Below, one piece after another: positions 1-9,234 of a stretch of 64,000 nt of DNA. Position numbers and translations under genes: made by a program. Source of the DNA: Arenimonas sp. Lineage in GTDB: Bacteria > Pseudomonadota > Alphaproteobacteria > Rhizobiales > Rhizobiaceae. The stretch lies in NCBI GenBank assembly GCA_019459145.1, contig JAIBEK010000020.1, positions 1 through 64,000 on the forward strand, written 5' to 3'. How positions within the stretch are numbered: position 1 is the stretch's first letter; each line of letters begins with the position of its first letter. The notes under the pieces were generated by a model, which saw only the letters and a list, made by a program, of their open reading frames with translations, searched no databases and had not been told where the DNA came from.

Positions 1-1
1 A

Positions 2-238
2 TCCTACATCCTGACCTTCATCGCCTATAATGCCGGCCCGAAGCGCGTGCCGGAATGGATCACCCGCTACGGAGACCCGCGCGGCAAGCCGATCGACGAG
101 GTGGTCGACTGGATCGAGCGCATCCCCTTTCCCGAGACCCGCAACTACGTCCAGCGCGTCACGGAAAACTACCAGATCTATAAGAGCCGGCTCGGCCAGA
201 AGGCGGATATCGTCGCCGATCTGCGTTACGGGCGGTGA
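2..238 (+). CDS. slt: Soluble lytic murein transglycosylase, C-terminal 78 residues (cut by window start)
   Basis: The frame is open from the first bases of the window to a TGA at 236-238. It encodes the end of the SLT goose-lysozyme-like domain, including the AYNAGPKRVPEWI core and the IERIPFPETRNYVQR segment typical of Slt. It matches the C-terminus of the complete slt at 6064-8130 at about 71 of 78 residues by eye, on the opposite strand, so it is the left arm of an inverted duplication. The catalytic Glu would lie upstream of the window. Whether the rest of this copy is intact cannot be seen. The family cleaves the MurNAc-GlcNAc bond of peptidoglycan, leaving 1,6-anhydro-muropeptides in the periplasm. 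Confidence 0.9.
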   Translation, partial: SYILTFIAYNAGPKRVPEWITRYGDPRGKPIDEVVDWIERIPFPETRNYVQRVTENYQIYKSRLGQKADIVADLRYGR

Positions 239-248
239 GGTCGGTGGA

Positions 249-280
249 TTGACAACTGCCGACTTTACCTCGACCATAAT
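249..280 (+). promoter_or_regulatory. Possible promoter for the PEBP-like gene
   Basis: A perfect TTGACA (249-254) is followed by CATAAT (275-280), 27 bases before the ATG at 307. The spacer is 20 bases, longer than the usual 16-18, so the pairing is tentative. The position, just after the slt stop, fits a separate promoter for the gene that follows. Confidence 0.3.
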
Positions 281-306
281 GTGACCAGAAGGATGGGGAG
301 CTTAGC

Positions 307-672
307 ATGCGCGGTATAGCCGTTTTAGTGATCCTGTTGGCCAGCACGGTCAATGCTGCGGCTGAGATGTCGGTGAGCTTCGAGTGGGGCCCCACAAAAA
401 AATGCGATACGAAATCACCACCAATCTCAGTCAAAAATGCCCCCGAAGGGACTATTAGGCTCCAGATATCGATGACTGACATCAATGTCCCGGGCTATCG
501 CCACGGTGGCGGCACCGTCGACTACGCCAAATCCGTTCCCTATGGAGCTTTCCGCTATAAAGGCCCTTGCCCGCCATCCGGCAAGCACAAGTATCGCTTC
601 ACCGTAAAGGCGCTAGACGCAAATAAAAAGACACTGGCGACCGCAACGGCGAGCCGCTCCTTTCCGGAGTGA
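307..672 (+). CDS. Small secreted PEBP-like (YbhB/YbcL-type) protein
   Basis: 121 aa with a clear signal peptide: MRG, a hydrophobic run, then cleavage near VNAAA-EMS at about residue 20. The C-terminal half carries the phosphatidylethanolamine-binding-protein signature YKGPCPPSG followed by KYRFTVKALD, as in YbhB/YbcL proteins. The usual central D-P-D ligand-site segment is not recognisable, and the mature protein (about 100 aa) is shorter than normal YbhB proteins of 150-180 aa. Start ATG 307 follows AAGGATGGGG. The base composition is visibly AT-richer than the neighbours, with runs such as ACAAAAAAATG. The gene lies between slt and the hydrolase in the left arm only; the right arm has no counterpart. 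This suggests a later insertion, or loss on the other side. Ligand and role are unknown. Confidence 0.7.
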   Translation: MRGIAVLVILLASTVNAAAEMSVSFEWGPTKKCDTKSPPISVKNAPEGTIRLQISMTDINVPGYRHGGGTVDYAKSVPYGAFRYKGPCPPSGKHKYRFTVKALDANKKTLATATASRSFPE

Positions 673-718
673 TATTGGCCAATAAGGTGAAATATCTTCC
701 TCGAGAGCAGAGGTCGAC

Positions 719-1582
719 GTGCACAAGAACCTCTACATTGACAGTGCCGACGGCCTCTCGCTTCACGTCCGCGTCTACGGCGAACACCTACCGGGCCAGC
801 CGGTGGTCTGCCTGCCGGGCCTGACGCGCAATTCGCGCGACTTTCACCAGCTTGCTCTGATCCTGTCGCAATCCGCCAATCCAATGAAAGTGGTAACCAT
901 CGATTCGCGCGGCCGGGGACTGTCGGATCGCGATGCTGACAAGAGCCGCTACACGCTGGCGGTCGAAGCGCTGGACGTCATCGCCGTACTCGATGCGCTG
1001 GCAATCGACCGCGCTGCCTTCATCGGCACGTCGCGCGGCGGACTGATCCTGCATTTGCTGGCCGTCAGCCACCCCGAACGCCTTGCCGCGGTGATGCTCA
1101 ACGACATCGGCCCGGTCATCGAAGTCGAGGGCCTGAAACAGATCCGGGCCTATCTCGGACGGGAGCGACAGCCGAAGGACTTTGACGAAGCGGCTCTCCT
1201 CCTCAAGCAGGTCCACGGCCCCGGCTTTCCCGCCCTTTCCCCACAGGACTGGCGCGACATGGCGGACGCCATCTACCGCGAGATCGACGGCAAGATCGTC
1301 GCGGATTTCGATTCCGCGATCGCCGAACAGTTCCGCGCTGCGGATCTTGAGCAGCCGCTCCCGGATCTGTGGGCGAATTTCGAGGCCTTCGCCGGCGTGC
1401 GATTGATGGCGATCCGTGGCGAGACGTCCCGCCTGCTGTCGGCGGAGACGCTGGCGGAGATGGGAAGGCGGCATCCAGCCATGGCGTCTATGACGGCTTC
1501 GGGACAGGGACACGCGCCCATCCTGCATCTCGACGGTATTGCCGAGCGCATTCTGGACTTCATTGGCCCGCAACGAGGCTGA
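719..1582 (+). CDS. Alpha/beta hydrolase (left-arm copy)
   Basis: 287 aa, a complete alpha/beta-hydrolase fold. The oxyanion-side motif CLPGLTRNSRDFH is near residues 31-43, the nucleophile elbow GTSRGG places Ser105, and the catalytic His lies in GQGHAP near residue 260. The start is GTG 719, preceded by AGAGG with a 5-base gap; no in-frame ATG fits the conserved N-terminus. It is about 70 % identical by eye to the hydrolase at 5072-5974 on the other strand and forms part of the inverted duplication. The fold resembles 3-oxoadipate enol-lactonase or RutD-like enzymes, but substrate specificity cannot be read from the sequence. No signal peptide, so probably cytosolic. Confidence 0.85.
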   Translation: MHKNLYIDSADGLSLHVRVYGEHLPGQPVVCLPGLTRNSRDFHQLALILSQSANPMKVVTIDSRGRGLSDRDADKSRYTLAVEALDVIAVLDALAIDRAAFIGTSRGGLILHLLAVSHPERLAAVMLNDIGPVIEVEGLKQIRAYLGRERQPKDFDEAALLLKQVHGPGFPALSPQDWRDMADAIYREIDGKIVADFDSAIAEQFRAADLEQPLPDLWANFEAFAGVRLMAIRGETSRLLSAETLAEMGRRHPAMASMTASGQGHAPILHLDGIAERILDFIGPQRG

Positions 1583-1674
1583 AGAGCATCATCCTGCCGA
1601 ACATCGCTGCGCAAGAAGGGCAACGGGAAAGACCTGTTCGCCGCAGCAATCACGAATGTCGTGGTCCAGAACGG

Positions 1675-1704
1675 AAAAAGCCCGGCTTTGCAGCCGGGCT
1701 TTCC
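1675..1704 (-). terminator. Intrinsic terminator of left porin
   Basis: A 9-bp perfect stem (AGCCCGGCT at 1679-1687 and its complement at 1692-1700) with a 4-base loop is followed on the minus strand by TTTTT. It sits 22 bases past the porin stop. The right-arm porin has the same arrangement at 4933-4960, so the terminator was duplicated with the gene. Confidence 0.85.
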
Positions 1705-1725
1705 CTATAAGATCCGAGGATCCTA

Positions 1726-2784
1726 TTAGAACGAACGCTGTACGCGGAAGAAGCCGCTCCAGACTTCCGGTTCGCCATCGGCGTCGGTGTACTGGACGCT
1801 GACCTTGCTGGACAGACCTTCGGCGATTGCGTAGTCGACCGTCAGGCCGGCCTTCCAGGCGTCGGCATTGTCGAACGAATCGCGGGTAACAAGGCCGTAG
1901 TTCCACCAGTACTGGGCACCGGGGGTCAGCTTGAGCTTTTCCGTGACCTTGATGGCGTATTCGGCCGCAACGGTCCATTCTGCCAGGTCGTAGTAGGCGT
2001 TGGCGCCGGAAGAATAAACGCCGGCTACGCCGAGCGTGCCCGGGCCGAGATCGGCTGTTGCCATCAGGCGAACGGCGCCGTTCTCGTCGTCGAAGTCATA
2101 GCCGCCAAGAAGCGCAACGGTAGCCGGGCCGAAGGAGCCGGATACCTGAGCTTCGATGCCGATGTTGTCTGCGCCAGCATAGTTGCCGAAGGCGCGGAAC
2201 GGGCTGACGTCGGAGAGCTGAGTATTGCCAGCGTAGTTGGTGGTCAATTCGTCAACGAATACGCCAACAGTGAACGCATCCGAAGCATATTCGTAACCGA
2301 TCGAGTTGATGCGGTTGGAACCGAGGTTGTCGGTTTCGCCCGACAGGCCGGCATCCCAGTAGTTGTACATGTAACCGACCTTGAAGCCGGCAGCCGTGAT
2401 GTAGGCCTCGTCGACTTCCACCAGCCCGTTGACGTAGTCGCTATCACCCCATCCCTGGAAAGCGATGAACGAACCGATCGTGCCGATTTCCGAATCGTTC
2501 TTGGCTGCGATCGACAGGTAGCCGCGGGTACGGGCGTTCCAGTCGAAGTCGTCAGCGCGAACGCGATCGAAGCTTGCCCAGCCGAGCTCGGCACGAACAT
2601 AGCCGCCGATCTGGAGGCAGGTTTCGGTGCCGGGGATGTAGAAATAGCCGGTGCCGAAAGCGTCGCAAACGCGAACATATTCCATGGGCTCGGGTTCAGC
2701 GGCAACGATGGCGTCGGCAGCCTGTGCGCCGGATACTACAGCGAGAGCTGCAGCGGAGCCGAGAATAAGGCTCTTGATGTTCAT
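1726..2784 (-). CDS. Porin (Porin_2 family outer-membrane protein), left copy
   Basis: 352 aa. It has a signal peptide (MNIKSLILG to GAQAADA, cleavage near residue 22), the rhizobial porin start of the mature protein (VCDAFGTGYFYIPGTETCL), alternating beta-strand segments and a C-terminal Phe (VQRSF), the recognition mark for outer-membrane assembly. The family forms trimeric diffusion channels. The first 57 residues are identical to those of the porin at 3836-4909, while the loops and later strands diverge, for example FDRVRADDFDWNART here. Loop differences would change pore selectivity or surface exposure. Start ATG 2784 follows GGAGG. Related rhizobial porins are called RopA, but orthology is not assigned here. 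Confidence 0.93.
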   Translation of the reverse strand: MNIKSLILGSAAALAVVSGAQAADAIVAAEPEPMEYVRVCDAFGTGYFYIPGTETCLQIGGYVRAELGWASFDRVRADDFDWNARTRGYLSIAAKNDSEIGTIGSFIAFQGWGDSDYVNGLVEVDEAYITAAGFKVGYMYNYWDAGLSGETDNLGSNRINSIGYEYASDAFTVGVFVDELTTNYAGNTQLSDVSPFRAFGNYAGADNIGIEAQVSGSFGPATVALLGGYDFDDENGAVRLMATADLGPGTLGVAGVYSSGANAYYDLAEWTVAAEYAIKVTEKLKLTPGAQYWWNYGLVTRDSFDNADAWKAGLTVDYAIAEGLSSKVSVQYTDADGEPEVWSGFFRVQRSF

Positions 2785-2806
2785 ATTGACCTCCAGTCAA
2801 GTTTCG
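2702..2806. repeat. 105-nt perfect inverted repeat, left copy (porin leader and 5' coding end)
   Basis: By direct comparison the reverse complement of 2702-2806 equals 3814-3918. It covers 22 bases of leader including the ribosome binding site and the first 83 bases of the porin gene. Outside it, synonymous differences appear at once on the coding side. Identity including third codon positions, next to diverged sequence, points to recent recombination or gene conversion between the two porins. Confidence 0.85.
2786..2800 (-). promoter_or_regulatory. Hairpin around the porin ribosome binding site (left)
   Basis: The leader has a perfect 5-bp inverted repeat, TTGAC-TGGAG-GTCAA, ending one base before the ATG, with most of the GGAGG ribosome binding site in the loop and stem. 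The same structure precedes the right porin. It could limit initiation or be a target for a small RNA; this is inference from sequence alone. Confidence 0.45.
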
Positions 2807-2866
2807 AATGAGTCCGGGTTACCACGTTGGGAGACCGCAACCGCGACACATTCCCTTGGTTTTCGA

Positions 2867-2897
2867 GAAGACGGACGATCCACCGTCTCGCTTCCGA
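2867..2897 (-). promoter_or_regulatory. Conserved upstream element of left porin
   Basis: A 31-base block beginning TCGGAAGCGAGACGGTGG on the minus strand matches 30 of 31 bases of 3721-3751, at nearly the same distance from its porin (83 versus 85 bases). The sequence between this block and the leader is not conserved, so the block is probably promoter, transcript start or operator. Confidence 0.5.
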
Positions 2898-3074
2898 CAA
2901 TGACGATACAAAAACGTAGCCGTCATGTAATCGTCAAAAACCACCTTGGCTCACAAAATCGCAGCGTTTCCCATGTGCTGTTGCCGAAAACACGCACAAA
3001 CGGTGCTGCGGCAGTCCGAGGTTAAGGAAGGTTTATGAAAGGTAAATAAAAAGGGGGGCATAAATTGCCTGGAA

Positions 3075-3165
3075 TGGCGGAGAGGAAGGGATTCGAACCC
3101 TCGATACGCTTTTGACGTATACTCCCTTAGCAGGGGAGCGCCTTCGACCACTCGGCCACCTCTCC
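3075..3165 (-). tRNA. tRNA-Ser (anticodon GCU)
   Basis: The minus strand reads 5' GGAGAGGUGGCCGAG, with a 7-bp acceptor stem closed by CCUCUCC, discriminator G and an encoded CCA (3075-3077). The anticodon GCU is at 3131-3129, in loop CUGCUAA on a CCCC/GGGG-type stem. A long variable arm (GUAUACGUCAAAAGCGUAU) and the TψC arm GGGUUCGAAUCCC complete a class II serine tRNA of 91 nt including CCA. It decodes AGC/AGU and lies at the centre of the inverted porin duplication. Confidence 0.96.
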
Positions 3166-3720
3166 GGTGCGGCCTGATTATTTGCTTGATTGGTCGAATG
3201 CAAGACCTTTTCGCCGGACAATGCGTTTTGCGGCCTTGCCGACCGATCGGCAACAGCTGTCGGCACGGCGCCTTTCGCGTTAATCTCTATATATATGAGC
3301 GAGCGTCCGGTCGTGGACGGTCACCGGGTGACCGCAGCCTTCCGCGATTCTCGGGTGCCGCGAGATTCGGGTTTGAGGGCCTTGAACAGGTGCCGGCGCC
3401 CGAATGAGCGATGTGGCGGAGCTCTGGCTCGCTCGGTAATCGGCCTCGAGGAGCGTCGAGTGGCAGGCCGAACGGCCATGAAAGTGCGGCTTTGTGTGTC
3501 GTTTCGGGCCGGTGTCAGGAGAATCGCTTAGCGGCGGTGATCGAGGCGCGGACACTAAGTGCCTTTTTTGTAAGGGCTTTCTTAACAATGCGTAAATATC
3601 GACACCGGCCGCAGGCGGGTTTTGTGTCCTTTCAGCAACAGGGCGTGGGGAAGGGCGCGTGTTTCCCCGCTTTGCGCGGTTTGGTGATTGCATGACCGGT
3701 GGCGTTTTGTATTTTCACTC
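3166..3720. other. Intergenic region between tRNA-Ser and right porin; no supported gene
   Basis: About 550 bases without a convincing gene. A frame from ATG 3295 to the TAG at 3529-3531 (78 aa) has no ribosome binding site, no recognisable domain, and an opposite-strand frame of similar length. A GAGCGA/TCGCTC inverted pair lies around 3404-3433. The tRNA promoter should be just right of 3165. Confidence 0.4.
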
Positions 3721-3751
3721 TCGGAAGCGAGGCGGTGGATCGTCCGTCTTC
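3721..3751 (+). promoter_or_regulatory. Conserved upstream element of right porin
   Basis: Mirror copy (30 of 31 bases) of the element at 2867-2897, located 85 bases before the porin start. See that entry. Confidence 0.5.
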
Positions 3752-3813
3752 TGATAAACCGACGGGGATGGGGCAGGGGATGCTGTCCTTCAGCCAAAGT
3801 ACCCAGACCCATA

Positions 3814-3918
3814 CGAAACTTGACTGGAGGTCAATATGAACATCAAGAGCCTTATTCTCGGCTCCGCTGCAGCTCTCGCTGTAGTATCCGGCGCACAGGC
3901 TGCCGACGCCATCGTTGC
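3814..3918. repeat. 105-nt perfect inverted repeat, right copy
   Basis: Reverse complement of 2702-2806. It starts 22 bases before the right porin ATG and ends 83 bases into the gene. The segment between the two copies, 2807-3813, contains both porin upstream regions and tRNA-Ser. Confidence 0.85.
3820..3834 (+). promoter_or_regulatory. Hairpin around the porin ribosome binding site (right)
   Basis: The same TTGAC-TGGAG-GTCAA inverted repeat as in the left porin leader, ending one base before ATG 3836. Confidence 0.45.
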
Positions 3919-4909
3919 AGCTGAACCCGAGCCGATGGAATACGTTCGCGTTTGCGACGCTTTCGGCACCGGCTACTTCTACATCCCCGGCACCGAAACC
4001 TGCCTCAAGATCGGCGGCTACGTTCGTGCGCAGATCGACATGTCGAACTGGGATCGCCCGGTTGGTGACGAGTTCGACTGGAACATGTTCACCCGTGGCG
4101 CCCTGCGCGTCAGCGCCAAGAACGACTCGGAAATCGGCACGATCGGTTCCTACATCTCGCTTCTCGCCAATGGCGATAGCGACTATGTAAACGGCAATGC
4201 CTACGTTGAAGAAGCCTACATCACCGCTGGCGGCTTCAAGATCGGTTACATGTACAACTACTGGGATGCCGCTCTGTCGGGCGAAACCGACCTGCTCGGT
4301 TCGAACCGTCTGAACGCTATCGGCTACGAATATGCGTCCGACGCCTTCACCGCCGGTATCTTCGTCGATGAACTGACGGCCAACTTCGCAGGCAACAACC
4401 GCCTGAACCCGGCTGACGTCTTCCAGGCCATTCCGGCTTACGGCGGCAACGACAACATCGGTATCGAAGCTCAGGTTGCTGCCAAGTTCGGCGTTGCTTC
4501 TGTCGCCCTTCTCGGCGGTTATGACTTCGCGACTGAAGACGGTGCCGTTCGCCTGATCGCAACTGCCGACCTCGGTCCGGGCAAGCTCGGCATCGCCGGC
4601 ATTTACTCGTCCGGTGCCAATGCCTACTACGACATGGCAGAGTGGACCATTGCTGCTGAATACGCAGTATCGGTCACCGAAAAGCTGAAGCTGACCCCGG
4701 CCTTCCAGTACTTCTGGAACTACGGCCTCGACCTGCCGGCAACCTCCGACTTCCTCGACCTGGAAGCCTGGAAGGCAGGCGTAACCGTCGACTACGCAAT
4801 CGCCGACGGCCTGGCACTCAAGACCACTGTCAACTACAGCGACATCGACGGCGACGGCATCGACAACGATGCATGGACCGGTTTCGTCCGCCTGCAGCGT
4901 TCGTTCTAA
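3836..4909 (+). CDS. Porin (Porin_2 family outer-membrane protein), right copy
   Basis: 357 aa. Signal peptide and first 57 residues are identical to the left porin, the middle is diverged (IDMSNWDRPVGDEFDWNMFT), and the protein ends with LQRSF for outer-membrane insertion. Strand-like repeats such as ASDAFTAGIFVDEL, GVASVALLGGYDFAT and KLKLTPAFQYFWNYG match the left copy. It is a passive diffusion channel of the outer membrane. Codon choice is strongly biased to C-ending synonymous codons, as in highly expressed rhizobial porins. It has its own terminator and faces away from the left porin. The two proteins probably differ in pore or loop properties, but which is the ancestral locus cannot be judged. 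Confidence 0.94.
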   Translation: MNIKSLILGSAAALAVVSGAQAADAIVAAEPEPMEYVRVCDAFGTGYFYIPGTETCLKIGGYVRAQIDMSNWDRPVGDEFDWNMFTRGALRVSAKNDSEIGTIGSYISLLANGDSDYVNGNAYVEEAYITAGGFKIGYMYNYWDAALSGETDLLGSNRLNAIGYEYASDAFTAGIFVDELTANFAGNNRLNPADVFQAIPAYGGNDNIGIEAQVAAKFGVASVALLGGYDFATEDGAVRLIATADLGPGKLGIAGIYSSGANAYYDMAEWTIAAEYAVSVTEKLKLTPAFQYFWNYGLDLPATSDFLDLEAWKAGVTVDYAIADGLALKTTVNYSDIDGDGIDNDAWTGFVRLQRSF

Positions 4910-4960
4910 TAAGATCTCCGGATCTTATAGGGAAAGCCCGGTCGCAAGACCGGGCTTTTT
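4910..4960 (+). terminator. Double hairpin terminator of right porin
   Basis: Directly after the stop is a perfect hairpin TAAGATC-TCCG-GATCTTA (4910-4927). It is followed by AAAGCCCGGTC-GCAA-GACCGGGCTTTTT (4933-4960), a GC stem with a T tract. The left porin has a similar pair, with a less perfect first hairpin. Confidence 0.88.
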
Positions 4961-5071
4961 CCGTTTGGGCCTGAAATTGAACGCCGCCATGTCCGGGCAC
5001 GCTGCGAGCCCTGGCTGTGTGGTAGCTCAGTCGGGAAGATTAAGCCTGCGGTGGCACGCCAGGCTTCGGCC

Positions 5072-5974
5072 TCAGGCCGAAGCAGCGGTGAGGAAATCGG
5101 CGATTCGCGCCGCCAGGCCGTCCAGATGCAGGATCGGGGCATGCCCTTGTCCCTTGGCGATGACGGTGACCAGTCCCGGGTGCCGCAATGCCATTTCCGC
5201 CAGCGTCTTCGGCGACAGCAGCTTCGACGTCTCGCCGCGAATCGCCATCAGCGGCGTGCGGTCGAAGGCCTCGAAATTCTTCCACAGGTCCGGAATCGGC
5301 TGGCTTAGATCGGCGCCGACCATTTGCGCGGCGATGGCCGGGTCGAAATCGGCAACGATCCGGCCGTCGATCTCGCGGTAGATTGCATCGGCCATATCGC
5401 GCCAGTCTTCCGGTCGAAGCGCCGGAAAGGCATCGCCATGGATCGCGCGCAGCATGCCGGCCGCCTCACCCATGTCGCTTGGCGCCTTCTGCTCGCGCCC
5501 GAGATAGGCCTTGATCTGCTCCAGCCCCTCCCGTTCGATCACCGGGCCGATATCGTTGAGAACGACCGCGGCAAGGCGTTCGGGGTGGCTTGCGGCAAGA
5601 AGATGCAGAATCAGCCCGCCGCGCGAGGTGCCGATGAAGGCGGCGCGGTCGACGGCCAGTGCATCAAGCACCGTGACGACGTCGAGCGCCTCGACGGGAA
5701 GCGCATAGCGGCTCTTGTCGCCGTCGCGATCCGACAATCCCCGCCCGCGTGAATCAACGGTTACTACCCGCGACGGATTGGCCGACTGCGAGAGAATCAC
5801 GGCCAACTGGTGGAAATCGCGCGAATTGCGGGTGAGGCCCGGCAGGCAGATCACCGGTATGCCGGACAGGTCTTCGCCATAGATGCGAATATGCAGCGAA
5901 TGACCGTCGGGGGTCTGAATGAAACGGCTAACGAAGTCTTGCCTGTGGGAGTCCTGCCTGTCCTTGCCTGTCAT
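5072..5974 (-). CDS. Alpha/beta hydrolase (right-arm copy)
   Basis: 300 aa from ATG 5974, preceded by GGAGGGCGGG; a longer frame would need a TTG at 6031 and adds residues missing from the paralogue. It carries the same motifs as the left copy: CLPGLTRNSRDFHQLA, nucleophile elbow GTSRGG, DSRGRGLSD and catalytic-His motif GQGHAP. The start lies 89 bases after the slt stop on the same strand, so slt and the hydrolase are probably cotranscribed, as the left-arm order also suggests. Substrate unknown. The shared linkage with slt in both arms hints at a cell-envelope context, but this is only inference. Confidence 0.87.
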   Translation of the reverse strand: MTGKDRQDSHRQDFVSRFIQTPDGHSLHIRIYGEDLSGIPVICLPGLTRNSRDFHQLAVILSQSANPSRVVTVDSRGRGLSDRDGDKSRYALPVEALDVVTVLDALAVDRAAFIGTSRGGLILHLLAASHPERLAAVVLNDIGPVIEREGLEQIKAYLGREQKAPSDMGEAAGMLRAIHGDAFPALRPEDWRDMADAIYREIDGRIVADFDPAIAAQMVGADLSQPIPDLWKNFEAFDRTPLMAIRGETSKLLSPKTLAEMALRHPGLVTVIAKGQGHAPILHLDGLAARIADFLTAASA

Positions 5975-6063
5975 CCCGCCCTCCGGTTCGGTGTCGCAAG
6001 ACAGATCTAGCGCAGTTTTTCCGGTCGCCAAAGCCGCGGTTCAGGCCCCAGCGGCAGCAGACC

Positions 6064-8130
6064 TCACCGTCCGAAGCGCAGATCCGCGACGATATCCGAC
6101 GTCTGGCCGAGCCGGCTCTTGTAGATCTGGTAGTTCTCCATGATCCGCTGCACATAGTTGCGCGTCTCGGGGAAGGGGATGCGCTCGATCCAGTCGACCA
6201 CCTCGTCGATCGGCTTGCCCCGCGGGTCGCCGTAGCGGGCGATCCATTCGGGCACGCGCCGCGGGCCGGCATTGTAGGCGATGAAGGTCAGGATGTAGGA
6301 TCCGCCAAACGCGTCGATCTGCTCGCCGAGATAATGGGCGCCGAGGGTGGCGTTATAGCCCGCATCGCGGGTCAGCTTTTCCGGCGCAAAGGCAAGGCCG
6401 TGGCGCTTGGCCACCGCCTTTGCCGTCCCCGGCATCAGTTGCAGCAGGCCGCGCGCATCGGCCGGCGAGACCGCCGCGGGATTAAACGCGCTTTCCTGCC
6501 GGGCAATCGCATAGGCCAGCGCCTTGCCCGAGCCCTCGATATTGGCCGAGGCGGGAATGACGCCGACCGGGAAGGCCAACGCCGGCACGTTGATGCCGCG
6601 GGCATAGGCGATCTTGCCGATCTGCAGCGACAGATGATGATCGCCCGACCGTTCCGCCTTGGCGGTCAGGAGCGCCAGTTCGCCTGGCCGGTCGATCTGT
6701 TCAGCCAACGCGCGGTAGAGGCTTTCCGCGCGCCAGGCGTGTCCGGCCGCCTCATAGCGGGCGATCGCCTGTACGGCCTCGCGTCGCGCGAAGCTCTGCT
6801 TGTCCTCGTCACTCGGCATCGGATAGGGAATGTCCAGTCGGCTGTTCTTCAGCCGCGCGGCGGCGAGTTGACCGTAGAAGGTGCTGGCAAAGCGCGCCGC
6901 CTTGGCGAAATGGTCCTGTGCCTTGCCGTCTCCGGCGACCTCAGAGGTGCGGCCGAGCCAATACCAGGCACGCGACGCCGACAGCGGCCTGTCGGAGACC
7001 TGCAGGATCTTGGCGAAGTGGCGGGCTGCCGCTTTCGGGTCCTGCAGGTGACGCAGGGCATACCATCCGGCATGGAATTCGGCGTCGACGACGTCGACGC
7101 GATCGGTGGCGGTGTGCCTCGAGGTGATCTCATAGGCCGCCTGGAACTGGCCCCGGTCGGCAAGCCCGCGCGCGACGATGCGCTGCTCGTTCCACCACTC
7201 GCCGGTATTGATGAGCTTCGTCGGATCGCGCGGCGCCGCGGCGATCAGCTTTGCCGCTTCCTCATATTTTTCCTGATGGCGCAGATGTTCGATACGGGCG
7301 AAGAGATAGCCGGGGTCTGAGCGCCAGCGCGGATCGACAGCCGAAAGCAGCGCCGCCGCTTTGGACGATCTGGCCAGCACCGCGACCCAGGCGTTGTAGA
7401 GAGATTGCGCCTCGCCGAGCGAAGAGAAGCGTTTCGCCTGCGCCGTGCGCCCTCGGTAAAGCAGGTAGTTCATCCGCGCCTTATGGTCGGCGACGGTCAA
7501 CAGGTCGGAAAACGCCTTCAGGATGCGGTCTTCCATGGCTGTGTCGAGCAGCTCGGTGCGCCACGGTTTTTGGATGACCTCGGTCGCCCTTGCCTTCTGC
7601 CCGGTGGAAAGCAGCGCGCGGGCAAGCACGATCGCGCCCTCCGCCGTCTCCGGTGCGGTCGCGCCGAAGGCGGCGATCACCTCTTCCGCCGGGGGATCTT
7701 CGCGGTAGAGCGCCCGCTCGGAACCGGCGCGAAAGGCCTTGAGGCCCGGCCAGCCCTGCAGTTCGCGCTGCGCCCTGGCGATCTCGGACGAGGCGACGCC
7801 GGGCAGGCCGGAGACGGCGATCGACCAGGTGAGCATGTGCCTGTCCAGGCCGGCGGGCATGCGGTCTCGGATGGCGAGCGCCTCGGTCGCCTTGCGGTCG
7901 GACAAGGCGTCGAGGCCTGCCTTCAGCATGGGGCTTGCCGAATTGATCCGCGCGCCGCGCGGGATGGTGCCGGTGATCTCCAGCGAGGGCGGCGGGACGA
8001 TGGCGGCCTGGGGCATCAGCGGTTTGGAGGAGGGGACGGGGACGGTTGCGGGGGCAAGCGGCTCGCTGGCGCAGGCGAGCGCCGTCAGGCTGAAACCGAC
8101 GATGGATGCAAGAAGAATGGTTTTCCTCAT
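6064..8130 (-). CDS. slt: Soluble lytic murein transglycosylase
   Basis: 688 aa from ATG 8130. The N-terminal segment MRKTILLASIVGFSL then TALAC is a signal peptide, with a possible weak lipobox at the Cys. A long helical superhelix region (residues about 60-520) resembles the Slt70 U-domain. The C-terminal SLT domain has catalytic Glu546 in ARQESAFNP, followed by GLLQLMPGTA and AYNAGPRRV. It cleaves peptidoglycan in the periplasm. In-frame ATGs at 8166 and 8157 are alternatives (GGAGG lies just before 8157), but the signal peptide begins at 8130. It is divergent from dapA, and a second copy of its 3' end is at the left window edge. Confidence 0.93.
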   Translation of the reverse strand: MRKTILLASIVGFSLTALACASEPLAPATVPVPSSKPLMPQAAIVPPPSLEITGTIPRGARINSASPMLKAGLDALSDRKATEALAIRDRMPAGLDRHMLTWSIAVSGLPGVASSEIARAQRELQGWPGLKAFRAGSERALYREDPPAEEVIAAFGATAPETAEGAIVLARALLSTGQKARATEVIQKPWRTELLDTAMEDRILKAFSDLLTVADHKARMNYLLYRGRTAQAKRFSSLGEAQSLYNAWVAVLARSSKAAALLSAVDPRWRSDPGYLFARIEHLRHQEKYEEAAKLIAAAPRDPTKLINTGEWWNEQRIVARGLADRGQFQAAYEITSRHTATDRVDVVDAEFHAGWYALRHLQDPKAAARHFAKILQVSDRPLSASRAWYWLGRTSEVAGDGKAQDHFAKAARFASTFYGQLAAARLKNSRLDIPYPMPSDEDKQSFARREAVQAIARYEAAGHAWRAESLYRALAEQIDRPGELALLTAKAERSGDHHLSLQIGKIAYARGINVPALAFPVGVIPASANIEGSGKALAYAIARQESAFNPAAVSPADARGLLQLMPGTAKAVAKRHGLAFAPEKLTRDAGYNATLGAHYLGEQIDAFGGSYILTFIAYNAGPRRVPEWIARYGDPRGKPIDEVVDWIERIPFPETRNYVQRIMENYQIYKSRLGQTSDIVADLRFGR

Positions 8131-8349
8131 CTCGATTGCCCGCTGGAAAATGCGCATGTCCTCCATTAGTCATTCGCAAGAACGAATTCCTAGCGCACAG
8201 GCGAAACGTGATCTGCGAAGCGCGGGGGAAACCGAAATAAAAGCCCCGCCACTCGGCTTGTCGCGCCCTTATCCGCCAAGTAATGTGCGCGCTTTCTAGC
8301 CGAGGAATGCGGCCGAAGCATGGATGTCGGCCTTAAGGAGTTTTACTGC

Positions 8350-9234
8350 ATGTTCCAGGGATCCATTCCCGCGCTCGTTACGCCCTTCACCGAAAGCGGC
8401 GCCGTCGACGAGCAATCCTTTGCCGCCCATGTGGATTGGCAGATCACCGAAGGTTCCACCGGCCTGGTGCCGGTCGGCACGACCGGTGAATCGCCGACGC
8501 TCTCCCATGCGGAGCATAAACGGGTCGTCGAACTGTGCATCGAGGCGGCGAACAAGCGCGTGCCGGTCATCGCCGGCGCCGGCTCGAACAATACCCGCGA
8601 AGCGATCGAGCTTGCCCAGCATGCCGAAAAGGTCGGCGCCGCCGCGCTTCTGGTCGTCACGCCCTATTACAACAAGCCGACGCAGAAGGGCCTCGTCGCC
8701 CATTTCGCCGCAATCGCCGAGGCCGTGACGCTGCCGATCTTCATCTACAACATTCCCGGCCGCTCGGTCGTCGACATGAGCCCCGAGACCATGGGCGTGC
8801 TGGCCAAGGCCCACAAGAACATCGTCGGCGTCAAGGATGCGACCGGCAAGCTCGAGCGTGTCTCGGAGCAGCGCATCACCTGCGGCGCCGACTTCATCCA
8901 GCTTTCGGGCGAGGATGCAACCGCGCTCGGCTTCAACGCCCATGGCGGCGTCGGCTGTATCTCTGTCACCGCCAATGTCGCGCCGAAGCTCTGTGCCGAG
9001 TTCCAGGCGGCGACGCTTGCCGGCGATTACAGAAAAGCGCTGGACTACCAGGATCGCCTGATGCCGCTGCACAAGGCGATCTTCCTGGAGCCGGGCCTTT
9101 GCGGGGCGAAGTATGCGCTGTCCAGGATCGGCCGGATGAACCGCGCGGTGCGCCTGCCGCTTCTGCCGACGCTGGAAGCCTCGACCGAGGCCGCGATCGA
9201 CGCGGCGCTCAAGCATGCCGGCCTTCTCGGCTGA
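8350..9234 (+). CDS. dapA: 4-hydroxy-tetrahydrodipicolinate synthase
   Basis: 294 aa, the usual DapA length. The enzyme condenses pyruvate with aspartate semialdehyde, the first committed step to diaminopimelate and lysine. Visible motifs are [12 protein letters not shown] (residues 41-52), YYNKPTQ, Tyr134 in YNIPGRSV and the Schiff-base Lys162 in GVKDATG. Start ATG 8350 is preceded by TTAAGGAG at 8 bases; a longer frame from 8320 adds ten residues not seen in the family. A strong terminator follows. The divergent slt neighbour also acts on the cell wall, which uses diaminopimelate. Confidence 0.97.

Follow-up and report, generated by a model that had tools for sequence, protein, structure and literature searches.

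At the left end of a 64,000-nucleotide stretch of Rhizobiaceae DNA (here the window: positions 1–64000 of contig C58), an slt gene, an alpha/beta-hydrolase gene and a porin gene are arranged in mirror order on both sides of a tRNA-Ser gene. This mirror-like order is probably not one duplicated block, and appears to have two layers of different origin. The inner layer, at 1726–4909, is an old inverted pair of porin genes, placed head to head around tRNA-Ser(gct), and this arrangement is common in the genus. The outer layer is the left arm, from 1 to ~1737, which consists of an slt fragment, a small gene and a second hydrolase, and which is most likely xenologous and attached at the porin terminator. 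A joint account is considered likely, in which a segment that carries the tRNA gene and one conserved upstream region, termed P_L, inverts between the two porins, and in which the left arm is foreign DNA joined at the 3′ end of the outer porin. The genome of the window, which has 70 contigs, is designated G000 in the comparisons.

Mirror order and its similarity

The earlier note on this DNA described the arrangement as an old inverted duplication of slt, hydrolase and porin with later local gene conversion. The gene order, strands and coordinates it gave are correct, and the mirror pairs are homologous. BLASTN comparison of positions 1–3074 with the reverse complement of 3166–8400 matches all three pairs with bit scores of 338–1010. 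This is far beyond chance, the best bit score in 200 order-1 Markov shuffles being 31.9. The slt ends are 91% identical over 242 nucleotides (nt), the value that had been estimated. The hydrolase genes are 76% identical over 794 nt (75% at the protein level, where about 70% had been judged by eye), and the porins, together with the terminator and part of the upstream region, are 78% identical over 1306 nt. As had been noticed, the porins are nearly identical at their amino-terminal ends (97.2% over the first 180 nt, 73.4% in the remainder), and the terminators are also duplicated, with an 11-bp hairpin after the stop codon of each porin.

Two points need correction. The left arm holds an extra gene, at 307–672, that is without a counterpart in the right arm. 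In addition, the near-identity of the porin heads (the first 180 nt) is not specific to the two window porins, porL and porR. Heads of other species match the porL head at 94–96%, and the best head elsewhere for either window porin is at 98.3%; with 97.2% inside the window, local gene conversion is not needed for that figure.

The mirror order and the similarity of all three pairs are what a single old intragenomic inverted duplication, followed by patchy gene conversion, would produce, but this explanation is now very improbable. A quick tree of 62 hydrolases places the left copy next to that of Ciceribacter selenitireducens as its sister (support 95) and pairs the right copy in the same way with that of G012 (support 97). 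Forcing the two together costs 91.8 log units, and the left-plus-right clade is rejected by the approximately unbiased (AU) test (P = 1.2e-5). The two hydrolases are thus not each other's closest relatives; the earlier note had held that grouping with different outside families would speak against duplication, and the hydrolases do group in this way. A search with the left hydrolase (E ≤ 1e-40) matched 62 of 63 genus genomes, 61 of which have a single copy and only G000 two. Furthermore, the order slt–gene 307–672–hydrolase is common to the left arm and G060 and is not that of the right arm, and elsewhere in the genus the widespread porin pair occurs with no second hydrolase. Duplication as a single slt/hydrolase/porin block is therefore not supported, but the idea is supported in kind for the old inverted porin pair.

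Origin of the left arm

The left hydrolase protein is 93% identical over 277 columns to that of C. selenitireducens and 85% to that of G060, both higher than its identity to the mirror partner. The left slt is represented by its last 78 codons only, because position 1 is the first base of C58 and hence a contig end. This slt end agrees with the outside affinity by identity only: at the nucleotide level it is 96.6% identical to C. selenitireducens and 92.9% to G060, versus 90.8% to the right slt and 89.0% to G012. No further piece of the left slt was found elsewhere in the genome in an slt search or with the first 240 bases or an 8-kb C. selenitireducens sequence as query. Of five sequences compared, G060 alone matches the 480-nt interval that separates slt from the hydrolase (88.9% over 476 nt).

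The protein encoded at 307–672 is 91.7% identical to that of G060, and among 62 layouts of the locus the gene is found at this place only in the window and in G060. The gene has matches in 27 of 199 family genomes, counting that of the window itself. As C. selenitireducens does not have the gene here, the donor was probably a relative of both C. selenitireducens and G060, judging from the sequences compared. The case for xenology is that the hydrolase is closest to C. selenitireducens and that the extra gene is otherwise found here only in G060; foreign origin is thus argued from the hydrolase tree, gene order and identities combined. In a tree of slt and dapA, G000 joins G012 (support 100).

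The junction with the porin

Between the left hydrolase and porL, the gap tracks C. selenitireducens across the terminator and past the stop codon of the porin, and similarity then falls within the last porin codons. Positions 1670–1737 are also 78–91% identical to G060, G063, G012 and the right arm; since this stretch is conserved in several porins, the joint can be placed just roughly, at ~1670–1740.

The flank next to the outer porin of G012 corresponds, in G000, to the end of another contig, C23. This contig carries a decayed porin 3′ end with in-frame stops at 82269–82391, and it terminates at 82409. The decayed fragment is 83.9% identical to porL over 124 nt; the match ranked second by score spans 37 nt (86%), and the longer ones, of up to 100 nt, are at 70–74%. 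Because the fragment resembles porL most, a porL-like 3′ end is present twice, intact beside the foreign-looking arm and decayed beside the native flank. Duplication of the porin end fits the prediction for an insertion that duplicates its target end.

The left arm can be looked at as DNA from a C. selenitireducens/G060-type relative that would have become linked to the outer porin at its 3′ end, with the decayed porin 3′ end left on the native outer flank as if the insertion had duplicated the target end. It would look mirrored because the opposed porins share a similar 3′ end and terminator, such that the inner arm of a donor can attach to an outer porin. A merodiploid-type event or homology-facilitated illegitimate recombination is a possible route; we infer both the route and the far junction. 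An inverted gene pair can thus make laterally acquired DNA mimic an inverted duplication, which is a trap when genomes are read by eye.

Several points weigh against a foreign arm. The wider group formed in the tree by the left hydrolase with C. selenitireducens, G060 and G063 has a support of just 19.7, and the slt and dapA 'species' tree is built from two genes adjoining the locus and is not genome-wide. The main doubt is the assembly, as contigs C58 and C23 both end at the unseen junction (between C58:1 and C23:82409); shared ends linking the two contigs were looked for and none were found. The left 1.7 kb might be a chimeric contig end, built from reads of a second, C. selenitireducens-like strain, in which case the true genome would have the ordinary order. 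Position 1 is indeed a contig end, the foreign stretch stops in a conserved terminator, which is the easiest place for a false join, and an 8-kb donor-locus query found no other second copies in the genome. Such a chimera is nevertheless distinctly unlikely, with the listed contamination at 0.02 and with the native outer flank on C23 ending in a different, decayed porin 3′ end. As C23 does not continue porL, an extra piece of porin at this site is independently indicated.

The porin pair in the genus and in outgroups

Sixty-three genus genomes were compared, with one genome per species. All except G015 and G017 were laid out, giving 62 layouts (61 fetched loci from 60 genomes, plus the window). 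The usual order is dapA, slt, hydrolase, then the porin or porins and tRNA-Ser. In the window, the open reading frame (ORF) at 8320–9234 (+) is presumably dapA, a label given from recall of its sequence. The window porins both belong to Porin_2 (PF02530) and are divergent, running outwards from 2784 and 3836 with 1051 bp between them. Two intact porin ORFs on opposite strands, with the tRNA gene between, are present in 34 genomes, and 15 genomes have two porins on one strand. Twelve genomes were left out of both sets: G067 (four porins) and G057 (porin ORFs missed by the script), both with the tRNA gene in minus orientation, and G001, G040, G045, G054, G056, G060, G065, G066, G071 and G072, which have broken, one, three or no full porin ORFs.

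Among 16 genomes of the same order outside the family, four have a porin match and the other 12 have none. The four outgroup loci were selected for having porin matches. In G038 all four elements (slt, hydrolase, porin and tRNA-Ser(gct)) fall inside roughly 8 kb. A porin of weak similarity lies close to slt and hydrolase in G035 and G036, and the porin of G033 is located at another site.

Departures from the inverted layout are varied. In loci L055–L057, L109, L110 and L112–L120 both porins lie on the same strand and on one side of the tRNA gene, either by the hydrolase or beyond the tRNA, and their heads are mostly 85–88% alike. Locus L104 (G067) has a same-strand pair on each side of tRNA-Ser, and is possibly an intermediate between the inverted and tandem layouts. 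In L103 (G072, a single-contig assembly), the two porin matches meet head to head without tRNA-Ser between them, and the genome has no P_L match; segment deletion or assembly collapse might account for this sequence. The 15 kb fetched for L085 (G045), which reach ~6.5 kb past the tRNA gene, contain only one porin, and the outer porin seems lost. Contigs end inside a porin gene in L046, L047 (G001), L081 (G060), L093 (G065) and L099 (G071); short-read assembly would be expected to break in this way at a near-perfect inverted repeat.

One conserved upstream region

P_L is defined as the 150 nt that precede the porin lying on the 5′ side of the tRNA gene, and P_S as the upstream region of the other porin. 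The two behave very differently in the 34 inverted pairs: pairwise identity has a median of 95.3% (minimum 87.3) for P_L and 58.6% for P_S. Scored against the P_L of G008, the 33 other P_L sequences are at 90–100% and all 34 P_S sequences at 48–76%. Column conservation of P_L averages 0.94–0.96 over the 150 nt that precede the ATG and is 0.75 in the 50 nt beyond them. P_S conserves mainly its last 16 nt, TTGACTGGAGGTCAAT. It should be pointed out that the ~150 nt of P_L (3686–3835 on the plus strand, and relatives) are better conserved between species than the porin body. A candidate promoter-like pair, TTGCAT and TATTTT, is legible by eye in P_L.

The P_L of C. selenitireducens as query matches 55 of the 63 genus genomes, and only G000 has a second near-full-length match. 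In at least five of the eight genomes without a match (G001, G040, G056, G065, G071), a contig ends within or next to the porin. P_L plus head matches 268 of 297 family genomes; among the matches listed, many of those to the partner begin 16 nt ahead of the ATG, at query base 135.

Porin heads

The first ~180 nt of both porin genes, together with the 16 nt that precede the ATG, make up an inverted repeat of ~196 bp that is nearly perfect. Head identity within the 34 inverted pairs is 93.9–100% (median 98.9), and beyond the heads the porins of a genome are 60.6–90.8% alike. In the 15 same-strand pairs head identity is 85.0–97.2% (median 86.1), and exceeds 90 only in G004 and G007.

Could strong constraint on the 5′ coding region be the sole reason for this likeness, with no exchange between copies? 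Heads are equally similar between species, a point that also weighs against exchange: the best head in another genome has a median of 98.9%, and it beats the partner in 18 of 34 genomes and ties in five, the resident pair surpassing every outside head in just 11. Among those 11, however, gaps can be large (100 vs 95.0 in G048; 99.4 vs 95.0 in G047), and constraint alone is hard to reconcile with the low median of the same-strand pairs. Constraint as the whole explanation is therefore unlikely. Conservation of the heads between species is accompanied, in some lineages, by homogenization within the genome. As for the later gene conversion proposed in the earlier note, near-identity in inverted but mostly not in tandem pairs is as expected of exchange by conversion or inversion, but constraint explains a part of it.

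Orientation of the tRNA segment

With slt set to the left, tRNA-Ser points away from slt (plus) in 14 of the 34 genomes and towards it (minus) in 20; P_L faces the inner porin in 14 genomes and the outer porin in 20. On the slt and dapA tree, at least six changes of orientation are needed among 33 genomes (G063 has no slt in its fragment and is not counted). Both orientations are present in assemblies of 1–5 contigs (minus in G042, G013, G058 and G009; plus in G064 and G059), and therefore mis-joined drafts are not the whole story. From the sequences of these 34 genomes, the segment with tRNA-Ser and P_L has probably been inverted repeatedly during evolution.

Eighteen pairs were picked by hand for comparison, as were the nine opposite-orientation pairs. 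The clearest swap, seen in 50-nt blocks, is between C. selenitireducens and G063. Their outer porins are 50–54% identical upstream, 94–100% in the head, 80–100% in later coding blocks and 60–94% in the 3′ flank. When the inner porin of C. selenitireducens is compared with the outer porin of G063, the upstream region is 99% identical over 150 nt and the head 80–100%, and later coding blocks are at 44–84%. In the nine opposite-orientation pairs, P_L is 91–99% identical to P_L, though it faces the other porin.

Other observations argue against repeated inversion, or against its having an effect. Orientation is clustered on the tree: 300 shuffles gave a mean of 10.9 changes (range 6–14), and only one of the 300 was at or below six. 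With at least six changes and yet clustering by clade, orientation has changed repeatedly but slowly. The comparison is between species, at one genome each, and no flip within a species was seen. Of the nine opposite-orientation pairs, only C. selenitireducens and G063 have porin bodies similar enough (93%) to show that the bodies stay put. In G000, P_S is itself P_L-like (75.5% to the P_L of G008; Table 1), the highest of the 34 genomes, with G012 next; from this resemblance, both porins may be transcribed in G000. Finally, a structured leader RNA was considered and, without a covariation test, rejected, as positions 3716–3838 fold no better than shuffles (z −0.15). An Rfam scan of 1500–5200 gave eight matches at E ≤ 1, only the tRNA reaching the gathering score.

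A possible porin switch

Recombination between the two heads would invert a segment of ~1 kb carrying tRNA-Ser and P_L, and would move P_L from one porin body to the other. This account takes P_L for the main promoter and supposes that it matters which porin is chosen; recombination is presumed to be homologous (RecA-type) because of the repeat length. The locus has one P_L region, two gene bodies and a shared head as an inverted repeat, and between species it is present in both orientations. Perhaps the inversion chooses which porin is expressed; by analogy this is plausible because only omp2b is reported as expressed in Brucella, according to the account in PMC7050475. Rapid phase variation is disfavoured by the clade-clustered orientation.

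It is quite possible, if slightly short of probable, that inversions of the tRNA segment are neutral, P_L being kept for a promoter or leader function only and the porin it faces being irrelevant. Flipping is slow and clustered by clade, and other species manage with same-strand pairs or a single porin. On the other hand, neutrality does not readily explain why heads stay nearly identical when the gene remainder has diverged so far, or why there is usually one P_L per genome. A broader proposal is possible but doubtful. It holds that a heritable porin switch exists throughout the Rhizobiaceae: a cassette linked to tRNA-Ser and bearing the sole strong porin promoter would invert by homologous recombination between the nearly perfect heads, and would thereby settle which of the two porins is produced. 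Similar, opposed 3′ ends would also admit foreign mirrored arms, and Brucella omp2, one gene of which is reported as not expressed, would be a related form.

The inversion of P_L between porins replaces plain duplication with a testable account, that of one conserved upstream region passed between two diverging porins. It also offers a possible reason for the silence of one gene in such porin pairs.

Comparison with known systems

In Brucella, the related porin genes omp2a and omp2b are described as lying in opposite directions ~830 bp apart, and omp2 diversity as arising through gene conversion between the copies (PMC7050475). The window likewise has two opposed, related Porin_2 genes about 1 kb apart. 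It differs in that near-identity does not extend past the 5′ heads, in that tRNA-Ser and a single conserved upstream region lie in the spacer of 1051 bp, and in that this spacer appears to have inverted between lineages; the comparison is with the description and not with Brucella sequences. The words 'tRNA' and 'inverted' are absent from the main text of PMC7050475, and two Brucella papers on an inversion describe one of 944 kb, not one of the omp2 spacer (PMC5596481, PMC4081994).

In Mycoplasma pulmonis, inversions at the vsa locus are described as joining a promoter and the DNA that encodes an amino terminus to a gene that had been silent (PMC4534519). Inversion here would similarly join the upstream region and gene head to the other body. 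The vsa inversion is site-specific, whereas the repeat here is ~196 bp long, recombination is presumed to be homologous, and only between species have flips been seen.

In the sap system of Campylobacter fetus, a single promoter sits within an invertible segment, and the heads of the genes are conserved. Its surface-layer inversion is described as involving a larger gene family and switching in infected sheep (PMC11852207, PMC5634654). In contrast, the window has two porins and a tRNA gene in the segment, and flips are between species.

For the left arm, the closest published mechanism would appear to be the merodiploid model of Streptococcus pneumoniae transformation. There, a donor fragment that is part repeat and part flank is described as pairing at the wrong copy and leaving a duplication (PMC3784515). 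The pneumococcal duplications are tandem, ~100–900 kb, and made from homologous DNA, whereas the arm here is small and foreign-looking and its second junction is unseen.

Among the papers listed, few of them from subscription journals, none was on tRNA/promoter inversion between alphaproteobacterial porins; on Ciceribacter porins, on inverted porins with gene conversion in Rhizobiaceae, and on RecA in the sapA promoter inversion of C. fetus, none was found among mainly openly available papers.

Features of the window

The features discussed are collected in Table 1.

Table 1. Coordinates of features at the left end of the window
Feature	Position	Strand	Remarks
slt 3′ end, truncated by contig end, left (putatively foreign) arm	2..238	+	96.6% nt to C. 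selenitireducens
PEBP/YbhB-like gene, intact, left arm only	307..672	+	PF01161 (Pfam PBP/PEBP); same place in G060
Left alpha/beta-hydrolase, most likely xenologous copy	719..1582	+	PF00561; tree and AU test
porL terminator-like hairpin, 11 bp, after stop codon	1677..1702	-	
porL, outer porin, Porin_2	1726..2784	-	PF02530
porL head, inverted-repeat arm	2605..2784	-	97.2% to porR head
P_S side, upstream region of porL, partly P_L-like here	2785..2934	-	75.5% to P_L; 79% to C. selenitireducens P_L
tRNA-Ser(gct), inside putatively invertible segment	3075..3165	-	
P_L, conserved upstream region, faces porR here	3686..3835	+	
porR, inner porin, Porin_2	3836..4909	+	PF02530
porR head, second inverted-repeat arm	3836..4015	+	97.2% to porL head
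porR terminator-like hairpin, 11 bp, after stop codon	4933..4958	+	
Right alpha/beta-hydrolase, native copy	5072..6031	-	sister to G012 in tree
Full-length slt, native copy	6064..8166	-	PF01464; 95% to G012

The nearest named records found, which from their coordinates and matches are taken to be G053, G062 and G063, are C. selenitireducens ATCC BAA-1503, Agrobacterium sp. a22-2 and a Rhizobium metagenome-assembled genome.

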